This document shows, one piece after another, positions 28,322 through 35,026 of a stretch of 64,000 bases of DNA. This DNA comes from Planctomycetaceae bacterium (GTDB taxonomy: Bacteria > Planctomycetota > Planctomycetia > Planctomycetales > Planctomycetaceae), in the NCBI GenBank assembly GCA_019636285.1, contig JAHBXV010000029.1, forward strand, positions 1-64,000. Direction: 5' to 3'. Under the pieces are notes generated by a model. That model saw only the letters and a list, made by a program, of their open reading frames with translations, had not been told where the DNA came from and did not search any database. The position numbers and the translations under genes are program-made. The number at the start of each line of letters is the position of its first letter. Positions within the stretch are counted from its first letter, which is position 1.

Positions 28322-31300
28322 CTAATCGACTTTCAGCAACTCCGGTTCTTCCTTCTCAATGATGATCCGAGGAGAGGTCGTCCCGACTGGCGCGGACGGG
28401 AGAGGCAACAGTTCCTCTTCTTCCTCCTGCACGATGATTCTGGGCGTCATCTCAAGCACGACGCGGCCTCCTTCAGCCAGACGTGGATCGCCCGGCGGAA
28501 TGGTCGCGCTGATGTCGATGAGCACCGTCTGGCCATCGGGAATCGTCATCGGAATCGGTTCCAGACGCGACGGATGACTCGCTGGCAGAATCATGATCGC
28601 GATCTTGCGACGGTCGGCGGAGACAACCGGAAGCACGTCGATCGGACCTCGTTGAAGACTCTTCGCCGGGGTGACGTCGCCTTCCCTCAAGAGGACAAGC
28701 GGGATTCGTTGTGAGTTGAAGACTGTCACTTTGAGTGCCGATTTTGAAGATGGGGCACTTAACAGGCGGACCGATTCGTTTCCATCCAGCGGCGCGGTGG
28801 TTTGCCATTCGTCATTCGAAACCGTTCGTTCGGTCGCCTGAAGGACGATCTGCAGCTCGAGTTGTCGCCGCAGTTGCCCCAGGAGTATGGCGATCTCGTC
28901 GTGATTGCCTTGAGTCTGCCGGATCACCAGGCTCAGCGTCTGCGAGAAGAACTTCATGGTGCAGCGCCCGCCGACGTGATCCCAACTGTTTGGATCGATC
29001 GTTGAGCGGATCAGACTCATCAAGTTTTCCTGATTGACTTCAAGAGTCTTGCCTGCGTCCGTCGGCAGGCTTTGCGGCTTTGTGGGATCGGGAATCGGCA
29101 CGACCAGATCGGCGACGGGGTAGGTCATGACGAGCAGGGGGTTGGCACGGTCGGGGCTCGTGATGACGACCGCTTCATCACCGACGGTCATGGCCAATCC
29201 AAGCGATTGGGCGAGAATCTTCAGCGCTGATCGGGCGGAGATTCCCGACAGCTCCAGATTGACGGGCGCGTTGCGCTGGATTCCGGCTTCTTGCAGCCCG
29301 ATTTCATCGAGCACGATATTCGTGCCCGTGCGACGTTGAACTTCCGCAACAGCTTCACTGAGCGGAGTGTCGGAGAACGTGAGTTCAATGATTTGATTGA
29401 GCCCCGGTGAATCCAGGGTTTTCTGGGCCGGCTGCCGGTATTTGTCCCTCCGCGCCTGATCGGATGGCGGGGCTTTGGTCCACGAAACGGCGGGAGGAAC
29501 AGGTTGAGGAACCGCCGGCCGGTGATTGAGTGCCTGGTTGTAGGATCGCCTGATCAGTGACGTGGATGTTGCCGAGAACTGGATGAAAACGGTGTCATCG
29601 GCTTTGTTGCCACGTAGGTGGGTCGTGAAGTCGACATTGTGATACCCATGCTTCGCGAACCACCGCCGCAGGACTGGGTAGGTGCGTTCGATCTGTTGGT
29701 GATCAAAGGCTAAGCCGCGCTGAATCGGAAAATCCTGCGGGAAGCCCTCATCAAGCATCTCGGGAATGGCGGGTGCAATGAGAAGTCCGCCGACCTTGAA
29801 TCGTCGACCGGTTTCGATGCGAACCCGATAAGGGACGGCATCTGATTCCAGATCTGGCCGCTTCAACCGGGTTGCCCAGCCTCCGGGGGCGACGTAGCCC
29901 TGTCGCAACAAGTGATGCTGAATTGCCTTATGGATGTGGTCGTGGCGCAAAACGGGATACAGCTCCACATCAAGGTCACCAATGCGGCCCAGTTCGGGCT
30001 TGTCGGGGTCCACTTCCTTCCAGGTTTGTTTCAGAACCCGCGGTCCTTCATTCACATAGACGACAGCCTTCCAGCCCGTTCCCGTTTCCGACTCTTCATC
30101 GGGTTCGACGTTTACTTCAATCTTGGCGAACAGATAACCAAGTTTGTGGTAGTGGTCACGCAGTTCATCGGGCAGGCGCTTCGTGACGTCGCCAAACGTC
30201 GTGGGCGGCGAAGCGCGGCGTTTGAGATAATCGCTCGCAATCGTGGACCGTTTCCCGCTAAGCCGAACGCGTACCGGCGTGGTGTCATCGAGCGCGCGAG
30301 AGACGGGAAGCTGAACGATGATGGCGTCATCCGCATTCGCAGGCGGTTCGTACGTTGGCACGATTGGTTTTGGTTGGGGGTTCGCGGACGTTTTTCTCTC
30401 TGGGGCGGGTTTCTCCACGGTTGCCGTCACGATGCCCAGCACGGTCTTGCCGCGAAAATCGGGGAACTCGAGGAGCAGGTGTCTGTCTGGCTCCAGTCGC
30501 AGAGTCGTCTCGATCTGCGAGGCAGCAATCGTCGGAGCCTGCACGTTGGTATCGCCTGTCGGCAGCTCACTCACCTCGGTCACTTCCTGCTGCCGCAGGC
30601 GCAGCCACAGGTGAATGGCCCCATCGTTCTGGATCGTGGGCCTGAGTTCCCAGTTCATTCCATCCGCGACGACCTGAATCACAGCCTCGCGACCCTCGGA
30701 TGTGGGCCGAGTCTCGGTGACAAACGGCCGCTCAGAACCCACCTGAACCATGGCCGATTGCCCGCTGAAGGTGGTGATTTTCGGGGCAGACAGGGTGACC
30801 GCCTGCGGATTGGCCTCGATCTTGGCGATGAGTTGGCGAAGTTGCTTGTCACTCAGAGATGTATGCCGGGGCCGGTTCGTGAGTTCATCCTTTGATTTTA
30901 CCCAGGAGATGTCTTTCATCTGCTTTGCGTCGACGTCCGTCATCCAGCGAGTCTCGATGCGGACCAATTGCTTCGCAGCTTCCGGGTGCTCGCGGCGTTG
31001 TTTCAGCAGGTGAGCCAGTTCGGCATGTTCACCCGGCGTTGCTTCCAGCCGCAGACGGTCTCCGTCCCAGGTGACCTGCCGCAAAGCTGGCTGACCATCG
31101 AACAGGGGTGATCGCGATCGCATTTGGGAATTGCGAACGGCAATCGCGACGACTTCGTTCAGAAACGCGCGGCGGCGCTCCTTGTCGTTGGGGACATCAG
31201 CAAAGTCGGACGACAGCACGTCCGCGACGTCGTATGTCTGCCAGACAGGTTGCTGATCAAAGGCTGGGGAACCCTTCGTCGCTGCTTCGGCCGCCTCGGG

Positions 31301-32458
31301 TGATGAATAGATCTCACCGAGTTCGGGGGCCGGGAGTTCTTGTGGCCCCTCTGCTGCCAGTCGGTCAGCGGCGCCGGGTAAGGTGAGGATCAATCCAATG
31401 GCCAACAGGCCCCAGCCCCACCACGGAGTCTGGGCCGGACGTCCTTGTCCTGTGCGCATGATTCGCTCCATTCGTTCGCGGGTCAGATCGACGGGCCGAA
31501 CTCCCGGCGCCGTGGGGACGGGTTTGAGTCGCTGTTTCAGTTCCAAAGTCGAAAGCAGGCTTCGCGCGTAGCGGGCTGGTTCGCAATCCAGGGCCGAGAG
31601 CACTTCATCGTCGCAGCAGCGTTCCACCAGTCGGGAAAGGCTGCGATTGGCCCACCAGACCAGCGGATGAAACCACCAGACGCACTGGACCGCCGTCTGC
31701 CACCAGCCCAGCCAGAAGTCGCGGCGGCGGACGTGAATCAACTCGTGGGCGAGAATCGGTTCGAGATCGGCGATCGATCGCTGATCGACGAGGGCGGCGG
31801 GCAACAGGAGAGTAGGCCGGGCGATTCCGAGCACGGCCGGGCCGCGGTTGGTCGGTGTCACCCAGATTCGCGGCGGGCGGCGCAGCTGCAGGCGACGACA
31901 CAGCCGCGCGACCAGTTCGTCGAGTTCGGGCCGTTCCACACGCCCGGCTTGTCGCAAATGGTGGAACAGCCACAACAGTCGCATTGTCGTTCCCAGCGCG
32001 AAGATTGCGAAACCGCTGAGCCACCCGGCGACCAGAATTACGGGCCACACCTCGCGATTGAGATGAGTTGCCGGTTCTTCGACCGCAAGGAACTGCACGT
32101 CGGCCGGTTCCCACTCCGTGAGAGGAATGGCTTGCGCGGCCACATCGGGCGGGGTTGGGATTGATGCGGGAATGCTCGTGTCCGCCTCGATCGGCTCTTG
32201 GCGAGGAAAGACCGACGCCACGGTCTCGGCAGCCGGTAGGGTGGCAACCGTTTCGGTTGGGAGCGACCAGGTAAAAAGGCCGATGGGGCTGCTCAGGATG
32301 GGGGGTGTAACGGCTTTGGCAAGAACGAGCAGCCATAACATTGCGGCCAGGTGGGGCCGCGACCGTCGGAACAGACGGCTGAGCACGGCCACTCCCAAAA
32401 TCACGACCGTCAATTGCCAGGTCTGTGCGAACAGCAGCGACAGGATGGGGTCACTCAT
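28322..32458 (-). CDS. M56 (BlaR1-type) membrane metallopeptidase fused to secretin-like and POTRA-like regions
   Basis: 1378 residues, more than twice the length of BlaR1. The N-terminal ~370 residues form an M56 peptidase: membrane helices near 8-30, 38-58, 138-160 and 345-366, with the zinc motif HELIH at residues 238-242. Outside the last helix follow a secretin-like segment (about 550-660, 'LSAPKITTFSGQSAMVQVG'), a region with POTRA-like features (about 770-935, 'YHKLGYLFAKIEVNVEP', 'VYVNEGPRVLK') and an STN/secretin N-domain-like stretch (about 1015-1085, 'TFSDTPLSEAVAEVQRRTG'). The penicillin-binding sensor domain of BlaR1 is not seen. The start overlaps the BlaI stop by 8 nt. In the known scheme the sensor cuts its repressor after a signal; the signal here is unknown. 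Confidence 0.88.
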   Translation of the reverse strand: MSDPILSLLFAQTWQLTVVILGVAVLSRLFRRSRPHLAAMLWLLVLAKAVTPPILSSPIGLFTWSLPTETVATLPAAETVASVFPRQEPIEADTSIPASIPTPPDVAAQAIPLTEWEPADVQFLAVEEPATHLNREVWPVILVAGWLSGFAIFALGTTMRLLWLFHHLRQAGRVERPELDELVARLCRRLQLRRPPRIWVTPTNRGPAVLGIARPTLLLPAALVDQRSIADLEPILAHELIHVRRRDFWLGWWQTAVQCVWWFHPLVWWANRSLSRLVERCCDDEVLSALDCEPARYARSLLSTLELKQRLKPVPTAPGVRPVDLTRERMERIMRTGQGRPAQTPWWGWGLLAIGLILTLPGAADRLAAEGPQELPAPELGEIYSSPEAAEAATKGSPAFDQQPVWQTYDVADVLSSDFADVPNDKERRRAFLNEVVAIAVRNSQMRSRSPLFDGQPALRQVTWDGDRLRLEATPGEHAELAHLLKQRREHPEAAKQLVRIETRWMTDVDAKQMKDISWVKSKDELTNRPRHTSLSDKQLRQLIAKIEANPQAVTLSAPKITTFSGQSAMVQVGSERPFVTETRPTSEGREAVIQVVADGMNWELRPTIQNDGAIHLWLRLRQQEVTEVSELPTGDTNVQAPTIAASQIETTLRLEPDRHLLLEFPDFRGKTVLGIVTATVEKPAPERKTSANPQPKPIVPTYEPPANADDAIIVQLPVSRALDDTTPVRVRLSGKRSTIASDYLKRRASPPTTFGDVTKRLPDELRDHYHKLGYLFAKIEVNVEPDEESETGTGWKAVVYVNEGPRVLKQTWKEVDPDKPELGRIGDLDVELYPVLRHDHIHKAIQHHLLRQGYVAPGGWATRLKRPDLESDAVPYRVRIETGRRFKVGGLLIAPAIPEMLDEGFPQDFPIQRGLAFDHQQIERTYPVLRRWFAKHGYHNVDFTTHLRGNKADDTVFIQFSATSTSLIRRSYNQALNHRPAVPQPVPPAVSWTKAPPSDQARRDKYRQPAQKTLDSPGLNQIIELTFSDTPLSEAVAEVQRRTGTNIVLDEIGLQEAGIQRNAPVNLELSGISARSALKILAQSLGLAMTVGDEAVVITSPDRANPLLVMTYPVADLVVPIPDPTKPQSLPTDAGKTLEVNQENLMSLIRSTIDPNSWDHVGGRCTMKFFSQTLSLVIRQTQGNHDEIAILLGQLRRQLELQIVLQATERTVSNDEWQTTAPLDGNESVRLLSAPSSKSALKVTVFNSQRIPLVLLREGDVTPAKSLQRGPIDVLPVVSADRRKIAIMILPASHPSRLEPIPMTIPDGQTVLIDISATIPPGDPRLAEGGRVVLEMTPRIIVQEEEEELLPLPSAPVGTTSPRIIIEKEEPELLKVD

Positions 32459-32837
32459 GGCGATCCTCCTCCAGTCGATCGATCATGGCTCGCAACTGGG
32501 CGAGATCGTCCGGCGAGATCCCCCGGTCCTCGATGAGATGCCGCATGAGGGGGAGGGCTTCGCCGCCGAAAAGCCGTTCGACCAGATCGTCGATCGTGTC
32601 GCGAATGACGGTGCGAGGCTGCACGCGCGGTGAATAAATCCGCGTGCGGCCTTCCATCCGCCCCTTGAGATAGCCTTTCGATTCGAGCCGCCGCAGATAG
32701 GTTTGCACGGTGGCGAAGTCGATGTCCCGCTCGGGCGGGAAGGCCTCGTGAACCTGCCGCACGGTGGCGGACTTCAGCTCCCACAGGAGCCTCGCCACTT
32801 CCAGCTCTCCCTTGGACAACCCCGGCCGCTCGCCCAT
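32451..32837 (-). CDS. BlaI/MecI-family transcriptional repressor
   Basis: 128 residues, the usual size. The winged helix is typical ('LSKGELEVARLLWELKSATV', 'VQTYLRRLESKGYLKGRM', 'RIYSPRVQPRTVIRDTIDDL'). It is the first gene of a two-gene operon with the M56-type sensor and overlaps it by ATGAGTGA. ATG 32837 follows AAGAAGGAG 6 nt upstream. A 22-bp inverted repeat with TGTAC/GTACA ends lies about 27-48 bp upstream of the start and is a likely self-regulating operator. Many planctomycete BlaI/M56 pairs have no link to beta-lactamases, and none is present here. Confidence 0.93.
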   Translation of the reverse strand: MGERPGLSKGELEVARLLWELKSATVRQVHEAFPPERDIDFATVQTYLRRLESKGYLKGRMEGRTRIYSPRVQPRTVIRDTIDDLVERLFGGEALPLMRHLIEDRGISPDDLAQLRAMIDRLEEDRHE

Positions 32838-32863
32838 GATCGCTCCTTCTTAACGCAAACAAA

Positions 32864-32885
32864 TGTACGCGAACTATGGCGTACA
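32864..32885. promoter_or_regulatory. Candidate BlaI operator
   Basis: TGTACGC (32864-32870), 8-nt spacer, GCGTACA (32879-32885): perfect 7-bp arms. BlaI/MecI/CopY repressors bind dyads containing TACA and TGTA. Its place just upstream of the repressor gene's ribosome binding site fits autorepression of the repressor-sensor operon. Confidence 0.7.
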
Positions 32886-32927
32886 ATTGTCTGTCTGGCA
32901 AGAGCGATTTTGCCCACGCTTCATTTC

Positions 32928-33002
32928 GCCGCCGGTTGCTCGCAACCGGCGGCATCTCCCCAAAACGAAAACAGCCGGCGGACATCGGGATGTCCACCGG
33001 CT
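32928..33002. other. Two strong hairpins between the RRM gene and the BlaI gene
   Basis: The first (32928-32953) has a perfect 11-bp stem GCCGCCGGTTG with loop CTCG. The second (32973-33002) pairs AGCCGG and GGACATC with GATGTCC and CCGGCT around one mismatch and a GG loop, preceded by CCAAAACGAAAAC. They lie upstream of the genes on both sides, so they are not simple terminators of known genes; they may end a short antisense RNA or be repeat remnants. Confidence 0.5.
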
Positions 33003-33125
33003 GCAAGTCTTTGGAGCGTTGACCGCAGTGTCGCTTAGATCTCCTCACACAACCGGTTGTGCCGGTCGGAAACCTGCGGAATACCGGGCAAACACTTCAC
33101 TTCACAAAGGTTGTGTCAGGATCGC

Positions 33126-33473
33126 TTAGTAGCGACGGCCACCGCCACCGCCACCGCCATAACCACCGCCGTATCCGCCGCCACCCGAGCGGCCGCGTCC
33201 GCCACCACCGCCGCCGCCGCGCTCTTCGCGCGGGCGGGCTTCGTTGACGGTCAGCGAGCGACCATCGATATCCTTGCCGTTCATGGCCGCGATAGCGGCG
33301 TTGGCAGCCTGGGCATCGCTGAATTCAACGAACCCGAAGCCCTTGGAACGGCCGGTGTCGCGGTCCATGACAACCTGCGCCGACTTGACTTCTCCAAAGC
33401 TGGAAAACATCTGTTCGAGCGCGGAGCTATCCGTGCCGTACGTCAGGTTACCCACATACAACTTCATCGACAT
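33126..33473 (-). CDS. RNA-binding protein, single RRM with glycine-rich tail
   Basis: 115 residues. RNP2 is 'LYVGNL' and RNP1 'KGFGFVEF', with the classical spacing of one RRM (residues 3-82). The remaining ~33 residues are almost all Gly with Arg and Tyr. This is the cyanobacterial Rbp / plant GRP layout, often linked to cold or stress response. Two starts (MSM and M3) are possible; M1 is used. A second RRM gene lies 177 bp upstream on the same strand, so the two may be co-transcribed. Confidence 0.93.
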   Translation of the reverse strand: MSMKLYVGNLTYGTDSSALEQMFSSFGEVKSAQVVMDRDTGRSKGFGFVEFSDAQAANAAIAAMNGKDIDGRSLTVNEARPREERGGGGGGGRGRSGGGGYGGGYGGGGGGGRRY

Positions 33474-33650: not shown

Positions 33651-33947
33651 CTAGAGGAGATCCAGGAATGGGTTGGTTTTCGGGCGACTCTCCGGGCGAT
33701 TCGACTCGCTTTCCGCCTCGCGGACAACGATCGACCGGCCGGCCTGGCTGGATCCATTCAGCCGCGTGATCGCTTCATCGGCGTCGTCCCACGACGGCAT
33801 CAAGACAAAAGCGAAACCACGGGGATTGCCGGACTGGCGATCGGTGGCGAGACGAATCGAGGAGACGCGCCCAAAGCGTTCAAACAAAGAGCGCAGTTCG
33901 CGCTCGGAAGTGGTGTAGGCCAGGTTGCCTACAAAGATTTGCGTCAC
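33651..33947 (-). CDS. RNA-binding protein, single RRM without glycine-rich tail
   Basis: 98 residues from GTG 33947 ('VTQIFVGNLAYTTSEREL'), which fits the start of RRM proteins; AAGAAGGA lies upstream at a slightly long distance. RNP2 is 'IFVGNL', RNP1 'RGFAFVLM', so the domain is complete but RNP1 is less canonical than in the neighbour. The tail is polar and charged instead of Gly-rich. The pair probably arose by duplication. RNA targets unknown. Confidence 0.88.
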   Translation of the reverse strand: MTQIFVGNLAYTTSERELRSLFERFGRVSSIRLATDRQSGNPRGFAFVLMPSWDDADEAITRLNGSSQAGRSIVVREAESESNRPESRPKTNPFLDLL

Positions 33948-35026
33948 TCGGTGAATTTTCCTTCTTGAGACGGATTTGAAACCCCAGGGGCGGCTTGGCC
34001 CGAGCTGTTGACTCGATGGTTCTAAAAGTGCCGACTGGGGATGTGTGCGTAATTGAAAGAAACGAAGTTCCGGAAAAGGGCCGGTCACGCGCCTCCGATA
34101 TTGGTCGCATAGGACCGCGGAGAGAGTTGGTTCGTGACCGTGGCGCTTGTCAGAGCAGCCGGATGGCTCGTGGACAAGAATGACCGGAGACCTGTTTCAA
34201 GTGCCGATTGATGTGACGGAATCCTTGATTCCGATCCACTGTTCCAAGCGATGGAAACCGTTCAAGGAGATTAAAGCCGCCCTGAATAAGTTCGCGATTC
34301 CCGCAAAGAATCAGCTCGGGTCGTCTGGAGAGAGACGGGTCGAGGAACCGTAAGGTTCAACTCGGCACGACGGTCAGCGAACGAGACAGCAGACTTTCTA
34401 GGGTTCTTCACCACCACCGGAAGTCTAGCATTCGCCAATCAAACTGCCTAGGCCGGAACTGGGAAATCGTGGGAATTCATGAGAAGTCGGTTTTCTGGGG
34501 ATCCAGCCGGGGCATTTCGGATGGAAGTCGAACCCGAGGATCTTGGCCTTAACAAAATCGACGCTCGTGAAGAAGCCAATCTGAAGCACCGCCTCGTGGA
34601 AGGCCGGAGGTGGAAATTCCGAGTGAGGAGTTCCCGGCTTGCCGTGCCGGTTGACCTTCTGCGGGCGTGTGTTTTCACGGAATCAATAGGTGTCGTTGCA
34701 AATTTCCACGAGCTATTTCCACGAGCTAACCGTTGGGATCGCTACAATGAACCCCTCTTCGTTACACGTGCGATGTGAGACGATTTCGAAGGCTGCTTCA
34801 TTGCGGTGATTCGCGTTAAGGCGCTGCCCGCAGGACTAGGGAAAATTCTCCTGGGCAGGCTGCATCGACGGCCGCCGGTATGCGACAGAAGTGCAGACCC
34901 TGCTGTGCCGACAGGTGTCGAAACATCTCGTTCGTCACCAGATCGCTGACTCCTCGCGCCCACGTCAAGAATTCAGAGGATGTTTCCGCTAAGCGGTTGA
35001 GTCGCACAAACACAAAAGGATTGAAG
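33948..35026. other. Gene-poor kilobase
   Basis: Nearly 1.1 kb with only short, unconvincing frames on both strands. A short direct repeat CACGAGCTA occurs twice at about 34708-34728. No tRNA-like cloverleaf or intrinsic terminator was recognised. It could hold a decayed gene, an RNA or a long leader of the small downstream protein. Confidence 0.4.

Follow-up and report, generated by a model that had tools for sequence, protein, structure and literature searches.

What does a BlaI-type repressor respond to when the membrane protease beside it lacks a penicillin-binding domain and carries modules of envelope proteins instead? BlaR1, a protease of the same family, is known mainly as an antibiotic sensor. 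The question is raised by a two-gene operon in a 64,000-nucleotide stretch of Planctomycetaceae bacterium DNA (assembly GCA_019636285.1, contig JAHBXV010000029.1, positions 1 to 64,000 of the forward strand), referred to here as the window. Its M56 protease ends in a tail of about 1000 residues in which a shortened secretin domain is followed by three POTRA-like repeats, a block resembling STN/N1 and another stretch like a secretin. We favor, with moderate confidence, the reading that the operon is a self-contained, self-amplifying BlaI/M56 proteolytic switch whose sensor is built of envelope-protein decoys.

An intact M56 protease and a BlaI repressor in one operon

The two genes lie exactly at the coordinates given in a preliminary description of this DNA, and the catalytic site is located within the N-terminal part of the larger product.

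32451..32837, minus strand: blaI, a BlaI/MecI-type repressor gene, 128 amino acids (open reading frame list; Pfam Penicillinase_R)
28322..32458, minus strand: M56 sensor-protease gene, 1378 amino acids (open reading frame list; Pfam)
31520..32428, minus strand: Peptidase_M56 domain, residues 11–313 (Pfam E 3.3e-42; hydropathy; profile of 20 fusions)
31733..31747, minus strand: HELIH zinc site, residues 238–242, with E279 and D283 completing the site (alignments)

The start of the M56 reading frame overlaps the end of blaI by 8 nucleotides, which places both genes in one operon. Its product, at 1378 amino acids, is indeed more than twice the size of BlaR1 (585 in the NCBIfam BlaR1 model, 602 in the BlaR1 chain of the Protein Data Bank (PDB)). 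The preliminary description had named low complexity or a frame artefact as what would undo the extra regions. Both were ruled out by G+C content (GC) at codon positions, which is coding-like across all modules (GC3 0.64–0.73, GC2 0.41–0.51), and by a normal residue entropy of 3.56–4.09 bits per 100 amino acids; the frame itself is single and uninterrupted.

The Peptidase_M56 match scores 145.1 bits, over the curated Pfam cut-off of 31 (E 3.3e-42). Hydropathy places presumed membrane segments near residues 8–26, 37–55 and 137–165, together with one at 346–364, C-terminal to the domain; further peaks at 206–225 and 1081–1099 were not counted as membrane segments. Residues H238, E239, H242, E279 and D283 align with H201, E202, H205, E242 and D246 of BlaR1, the BlaR1 residues being drawn partly from the passages seen of PMC9834060. 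H238 and H242 had been correctly picked out before, and E239, E279 and D283 are added to the site here. Across 20 aligned fusions, H238 and D283 never vary and the other three hardly do. A profile of these 20 fusions matches BlaR1 (8exp) at 8.2e-15, with the catalytic residues landing on its HEXXH motif and the following E and D, and its matches to BlaR1 and to solved secretins (up to 1.5e-10) each fall in the expected half. The window M56 domain by itself gave no BlaR1 match in a phmmer search of PDB sequences (E up to 0.1), in contrast to the 20-row profile.

The partner is a Penicillinase_R protein (95.7 bits, E 3.1e-27) whose matches among PDB sequences include MecI (1okr) and BlaI (1sd4); four of the ten matches, dPPR proteins whose scores add up many weak repeats, were set aside. 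BlaR1 cuts BlaI directly between N101 and F102, and the P1′ Phe is almost invariant, according to the passages seen of PMC9834060. By alignment to this Staphylococcus aureus bond, the candidate cleavage bond in the window BlaI is H100–L101. Fusion loci supplied 33 BlaIs, of which 28 have H at the presumed P1 position. At the presumed P1′ position 17 have F and 16 have L, and 22 other BlaIs have L, A, M, F or I there.

Two predicted operators at the operon's predicted promoter

Upstream of blaI, two predicted BlaI-type operators 24 bp apart bracket the −10 element of a predicted promoter.

32873..32901, minus strand: sigma-70-like promoter TTGCCA-17-CATAGT (consensus match only, 9/12)
32882..32891, minus strand: upstream operator GACAATTGTA, one mismatch to TACANNTGTA, inside the −35/−10 spacer (site scan)
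32858..32867, minus strand: downstream operator TACATTTGTT, one mismatch to TACANNTGTA, just past the −10 element (site scan)

We take TACANNTGTA to be the operator type of BlaI and CopY. Of 55 regions upstream of BlaI, 29 contain it exactly (0.15 expected by shuffling) and 42 with at most one mismatch (4.56 expected). Sigma-70-like sites number 2 in 5.2 kb, against 0.8 in shuffles. In the organism's own genome (6.37 Mb), the pair pattern, allowing up to three mismatches, is found just once, at this promoter and with two mismatches; no exact pair is present. This single occurrence draws its weight from its location rather than its score, because the reversed control has nine chance hits. Among 170 genomes of the family, exact pairs are found at 28 places in 20 genomes (reversed control: two hits, in one genome). 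All 28, the twenty-eighth being locus L109, lie upstream of a BlaI gene, and an M56 gene then follows in 25. At L232, L239 and L219 (genomes G081, G252 and G167), BlaI with a perfect operator pair has no recognizable M56 gene behind it; about 1.1 kb is seen downstream in G167. The spacing of exact-site pairs is 16 bp in all seven short fusions (L098, L101, L104, L106, L109, L113, L118) and 23–26 bp in the clade of the window protein (for example L085, L088, L229, L234), with 26 bp also at L099.

Because the pair is unique in the genome and the exact pairs of relatives all precede BlaI, the operon seems to control itself, a point absent from the preliminary description. An alternative is an ordinary envelope sensor with a separate regulon, whose genes, switched on by BlaI release, would have single or diverged operators, indistinguishable from chance in these scans. 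Such a regulon has precedent, as BlaR1 signaling induces blaZ and mecA (PMC9834060, passages seen), and a lone TACANNTGTA is too short to judge in a 6.4-Mb genome, the genome-wide scans having covered paired and extended sites. However, the exact pairs in the family stand only at BlaI genes. No exact site occurs in five secretin-matching stretches of the own genome (51 kb), and one site there has a single mismatch, fewer than the shuffled mean of 7.25. In 13 relatives of genus g56, extended lone sites do not exceed the reversed control (53 against 65). We regard a separate regulon as possible, though fairly unlikely.

Protease and repressor stay together across loci

M56 domains are present in 116 of 148 genomes of the window's class, with up to 15 matches per genome, and residues 380–985 of the window protein match 64 of 397 class genomes, the matches listed falling over the secretin part; both counts include the own genome. 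Sixty loci chosen from these searches, plus the window, formed the fusion sample, and 35 loci in it carry an M56–secretin fusion. BlaI adjoins M56 in 31 of the 35, the co-occurrence that the preliminary description had proposed as a check. The four exceptions are L092, at a contig end, L096, with a split M56 frame, and L115 and L120, which have lost catalytic residues. At L096 (3109–6300) the M56–secretin gene lies in two frames with BlaI beside the first half, which may be a frameshift or an assembly error. BlaI also stands beside 40 of 40 M56 genes in 35 further stretches (two genes cut at the edge), and is adjacent in 71 of 80 named loci. A tandem pair of M56–secretin genes behind a single BlaI occurs at L104 (2348–6953).

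Enough upstream sequence was available for 184 M56 proteins. BlaI accompanies 175 of them, each with the full H/E/H/E/D set; the nine without BlaI comprise two with a broken set (L115, L120) and seven that are intact. Loss of the set and loss of BlaI are associated (Fisher p 0.002), but L115 and L120 both come from one genus and are therefore probably one event. These calls used aligned residues in preference to a text match to HE..H; the two disagree at L115, where the text matches elsewhere in the domain, and at L270, which is intact in the alignment. The five catalytic residues are also invariant in 38 complete M56 proteins, a sample drawn mostly at regular intervals from the best-scoring matches listed, with the own genome's second copy and two hand-picked proteins added.

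These data bear on the idea that the tail is structural or adhesive, a tether to the cell wall or outer membrane, with the protease adjusting its own abundance and sensing no external signal. Two fusions from two genomes of one genus (L115, 3382–5511; L120, 3099–5279) have lost catalytic residues and the BlaI neighbor and kept the secretin part, so a tail can be useful without the switch. Tails are also highly variable, and carboxypeptidase-regulatory domains occur in 17 of the 38 sampled proteins. Against a tether stands the intact catalytic set in 182 of the 184 proteins, from which switching seems to be under selection almost everywhere. We judge a purely structural tail unlikely.

Secretin-derived and POTRA-like modules of the tail

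The tail divides into four parts, of which the first two had been described as modules otherwise found in outer-membrane secretion and assembly proteins. That assignment stands for the secretin part, which is over its cut-off, and is softer for POTRA, which is just under it.

30470..30847, minus strand: shortened secretin domain, residues 538–663 (Pfam PF00263, local model, fusion profile)
29504..30388, minus strand: block of three POTRA-like repeats, residues 691–985, with GY motifs at 774, 854 and 938 (Pfam, NCBIfam BamA, spacing)
28847..29401, minus strand: N0/N1-like (STN-like) block, residues 1020–1204 (local model; STN matches of relatives)
28409..28843, minus strand: C-terminal second secretin-like stretch, residues 1206–1350 (local model; L035 counterpart)

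PF00263 matches residues 548–660 at E 2.3e-12 (47.3 bits, cut-off 27.5), and weak NCBIfam secretin models cover the same stretch. The match spans profile positions 3–116 of 169 and so falls short of a complete secretin domain. The same truncation is seen in all seven fused domains compared (window, L034, L086, L088, L103, L104, L118), which stop at positions 116–130; L118 scores below the cut-off (25.3 of 27.5 bits) and L104 barely above it. At L287 the secretin match covers only positions 58–126. Among stand-alone secretins of relatives, in contrast, three cover 1–169 (L107, L108, L114) and that of L117 covers 3–168, and four in the own genome cover 166–169 positions. Besides the window protein, the own genome has partial secretin matches in three frames. 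In one of these, of 248 amino acids (G000 contig 67:22322–22660, C67), the match ends at position 119, as in the M56-fused domains.

Could the tail form a genuine secretin ring in the outer membrane, or an assembly factor, anchored to an inner-membrane protease so as to give a trans-envelope channel? The secretin score is over the cut-off, and the fusion profile matches the solved secretins BfpB (9u5s) and GspD (6hcg), its alignment to the ring-forming BfpB running nearly to the end with a shortened stretch ahead of the last strand. On the other side are the early ends of the seven fused domains against full or nearly full stand-alone ones, and the window protein has no Pfam match to Secretin_N. 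A complete secretin pore was rejected on this comparison, and a working outer-membrane pore is unlikely because the fused domain is incomplete; a decoy or binding role appears more likely, as judged from the alignments. We consider the channel very improbable. Beta-lactam sensing as in BlaR1 shares the protease and repressor families but was rejected as extremely unlikely, since no penicillin-binding domain, as already claimed, is among the Pfam matches of the 1378-residue protein and NCBIfam blaR1_generic reaches 80.6 bits against a cut-off of 400.

Beyond the secretin domain, assignments are softer. The POTRA match at residues 764–804 (E 8e-4, 20.5 bits) lies just under the Pfam cut-off of 21.3, and a weak NCBIfam BamA match (E 5.9e-4; model positions 230–315 of 741 only) falls on a different repeat, at 876–962. 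The GY units are spaced by 80 and 84 residues, a pattern typical of POTRA repeats. Scanned singly, only the first repeat gives a match (E 0.0033, under the cut-off). We kept the label POTRA-like because the curated threshold was missed and repeats 2 and 3 alone are unmatched. No surface-antigen barrel (the C-terminal part of Omp85/BamA) was found in the window protein by Pfam at E up to 0.1, and a phmmer search of the block against PDB sequences returned two chance-level matches to Elongator protein 3 and nothing POTRA-like. Residues 1020–1204 and 1206–1350 of the window copy have no Pfam match. STN matches fall in the same N0/N1-like block of L039, L037, L050 and L035, all under the cut-off, and the L035 counterpart of the C-terminal stretch overlaps the end of a Pfam Secretin match (profile 88–168). 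The local profile models were built by iteration on the same loci that they then label.

Recurrence of the fusion and diversity of its tails

The design had been put forward as one not known to be described. It proves not to be singular: at least two M56 lineages of the window's class carry such fusions. The three-repeat POTRA block was found in this genome only, apart from one weak match of 68 residues (G219) among 396 other genomes. We found no description of an M56–secretin fusion among the matches listed from the open-licence PubMed Central literature; in PMC12578637, the visible "M56" matches are catalogue numbers and no passage seen mentions a BlaI repressor.

In a FastTree phylogeny of 186 M56 domains, 26 fusions form one clade (support 92) and the window protein belongs to another, of 16 (support 86). 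The tree gives 10 changes of the secretin label, an inflated count, as L231, L233 and L234 are labeled as lacking a secretin domain that was detected. A separate secretin tree was weakly supported and used as a hint only. The M56 tree suggests that the M56–secretin pairing arose or was lost several times. Among the named loci, L125, from a Phycisphaera metagenome-assembled genome (MAG), and, weakly, L162, from an Akkermansiaceae MAG, have fusions. At L035 (9314–13999, upstream) and L036 (3270–6857, downstream), a large protein carrying secretin and N0/N1-like parts is encoded separately next to the BlaI–M56 pair, a split form of the same arrangement. Fusions in separate M56 lineages and these split neighbors point to a functional tie between the switch and secretin modules.

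Within the window's clade, 13 of 16 members have the secretin domain and 15 have the N0/N1-like block, the exception being L111, which is cut by a contig end. In L033, the nearest relative, the N0/N1-like block is preceded by a redoxin-like stretch (E 0.0059, a match under the cut-off) and by no detected secretin domain. At L287 (1580–5476), an SLBB domain lies between the secretin and N0/N1-like parts, where the window protein has its POTRA-like block. The middle of the tail therefore looks exchangeable, and the POTRA-like block looks like this genome's version of that slot.

Tails vary more widely still across the class. Besides the carboxypeptidase-regulatory domains, the 38 sampled proteins include four with AhpC-TSA, two with HEAT and two with LRR domains. 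Four long M56 proteins of 1698–2992 amino acids (L046:4356–9449, L047:3226–8829, L048:3238–8598, L049:1290–10265) carry POTRA, thioredoxin-like, trypsin-like and PQQ-propeller tails. STN matches in the hand-picked long proteins are under the cut-off, and one POTRA match, in L046, is over it. The sole other BlaI–M56 pair found in the own genome (L291:1970–3904, G000 contig 70) encodes a protein of 645 amino acids with a Pfam match to M56 only. A scan of genome contigs with the single protein returned 10 stretches, none of them confirmed.

Proposed mechanism

In the self-amplifying switch that we favor, BlaI dimers on the two operators around the −10 element would repress the two-gene operon. 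The M56 protein would span the inner membrane, with its zinc protease in the cytoplasm and some 1000 residues in the periplasm, as judged from BlaR1 and hydropathy. The periplasmic tail may be a decoy for the machinery of export or outer-membrane assembly, capturing one of its clients or partners. This contact would relieve autoinhibition, and the protease would then cut BlaI, probably at H100–L101. Cleavage would derepress the operon and yield more of the same sensor, so that the envelope-module protein may be sensor and effector at once. The main product of the switch appears to be that protein itself, because no second paired site was found in the genome. The domain content suggests that the envelope, rather than antibiotics, is what the switch watches or serves. 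We read the system as a BlaI/M56 switch, apparently self-controlled, whose tail is of a new kind and which probably acts on the cell envelope. The preliminary description's idea, a sensor of envelope or secretion state that cuts its BlaI partner, is thereby supported in part. A bolder version is tentative, with a modest chance of being right: that the switch is its own effector, setting through self-amplification how much of the secretin and assembly-factor decoy protein is made, and that the M56 paralogues with swapped tails form a toolkit in which an envelope component is copied, fused to the protease and made to monitor its own pathway.

Several points weigh against this mechanism. Operator binding, BlaI cleavage and control of expression are predictions from the sequence. 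Each of the window's operators has one mismatch, and at up to three mismatches the reversed control gives nine chance hits to one real hit. Similar spacing (23–24 bp) precedes M56 genes with no detected secretin part (L236–L238), and targets with single or diverged operators would escape the scans. The presumed P1′ residue in the window is Leu, in place of the Phe found in nearly all BlaI proteins. BlaI is missing beside seven M56 genes whose sites are intact, one of them the second gene of the tandem pair at L104, and no partner gene is conserved next to the fusion loci. On the side of the tail, the POTRA score is under the Pfam cut-off, and the N0/N1-like and C-terminal labels derive from relatives and self-built local models. 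Confidence is low in both AlphaFold models, built from alignments of 4 and 5 rows (mean pLDDT 41.9 and 42.6), so the folds are unconfirmed.

Other features around the operon

Two RNA-recognition-motif (RRM) genes lie in tandem directly upstream of the operon, at window positions 33126–33473 and 33651–34088, and the first product is glycine-rich. The window also encodes a PSCyt1 "Planctomycete cytochrome C" protein.

32843..32848, minus strand: likely ribosome-binding site of blaI, AAGGAG (direct sequence reading)
32971..33004, minus strand: terminator-like hairpin of 15 pairs between the upstream RRM gene and the operon (scan)

Terminator-like sites in the region number six, not clearly above shuffles (4.5, standard deviation 2.2). 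Neighbor clusters of at least three genera are mostly frames antisense to M56 or BlaI, by their coordinates, with one group including the window's protein kinase. Another cluster is presumably of sulfatases.

Comparison with known systems

The window system shares with BlaR1–BlaI and MecR1–MecI of staphylococci and bacilli an M56 HEXXH site with its E and D, an adjoining BlaI-family repressor, a TACANNTGTA-type operator and, presumably, a C-terminal sensor outside the inner membrane. It differs in lacking a penicillin-binding domain and in its tail, where about 1000 residues carry the secretin, POTRA-like and N0/N1-like modules; its operon has no resistance gene, and the operator pair was found at the operon only. 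The other BlaI–M56 pairs of the class, with redoxin, SLBB, trypsin-like, propeller or carboxypeptidase-regulatory tails, have the same protease–repressor layout and exchangeable tail. They differ in what the tail contains, the secretin-derived parts being carried by the window protein and its clade. Compared with secretins such as GspD and BfpB (PF00263), residues ~540–690 are homologous in sequence, but the window protein leaves the last quarter to third of the Pfam profile unmatched and is joined to an M56 protease. The Psp response to mislocalized secretins (PspA/PspBC) may share a theme only, the sensing of secretin or envelope state at the inner membrane (PMC5596341), and its proteins are unrelated to BlaI and M56.

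Many members of the window's class have the same protease–repressor pair with tails borrowed from other envelope proteins, and here the promoter looks self-contained. If the proposed switch is real, stress on secretins or on assembly would be expected to set off BlaI cleavage and self-induction. It would then be a form of envelope surveillance distinct from Psp, Cpx and sigma-E.

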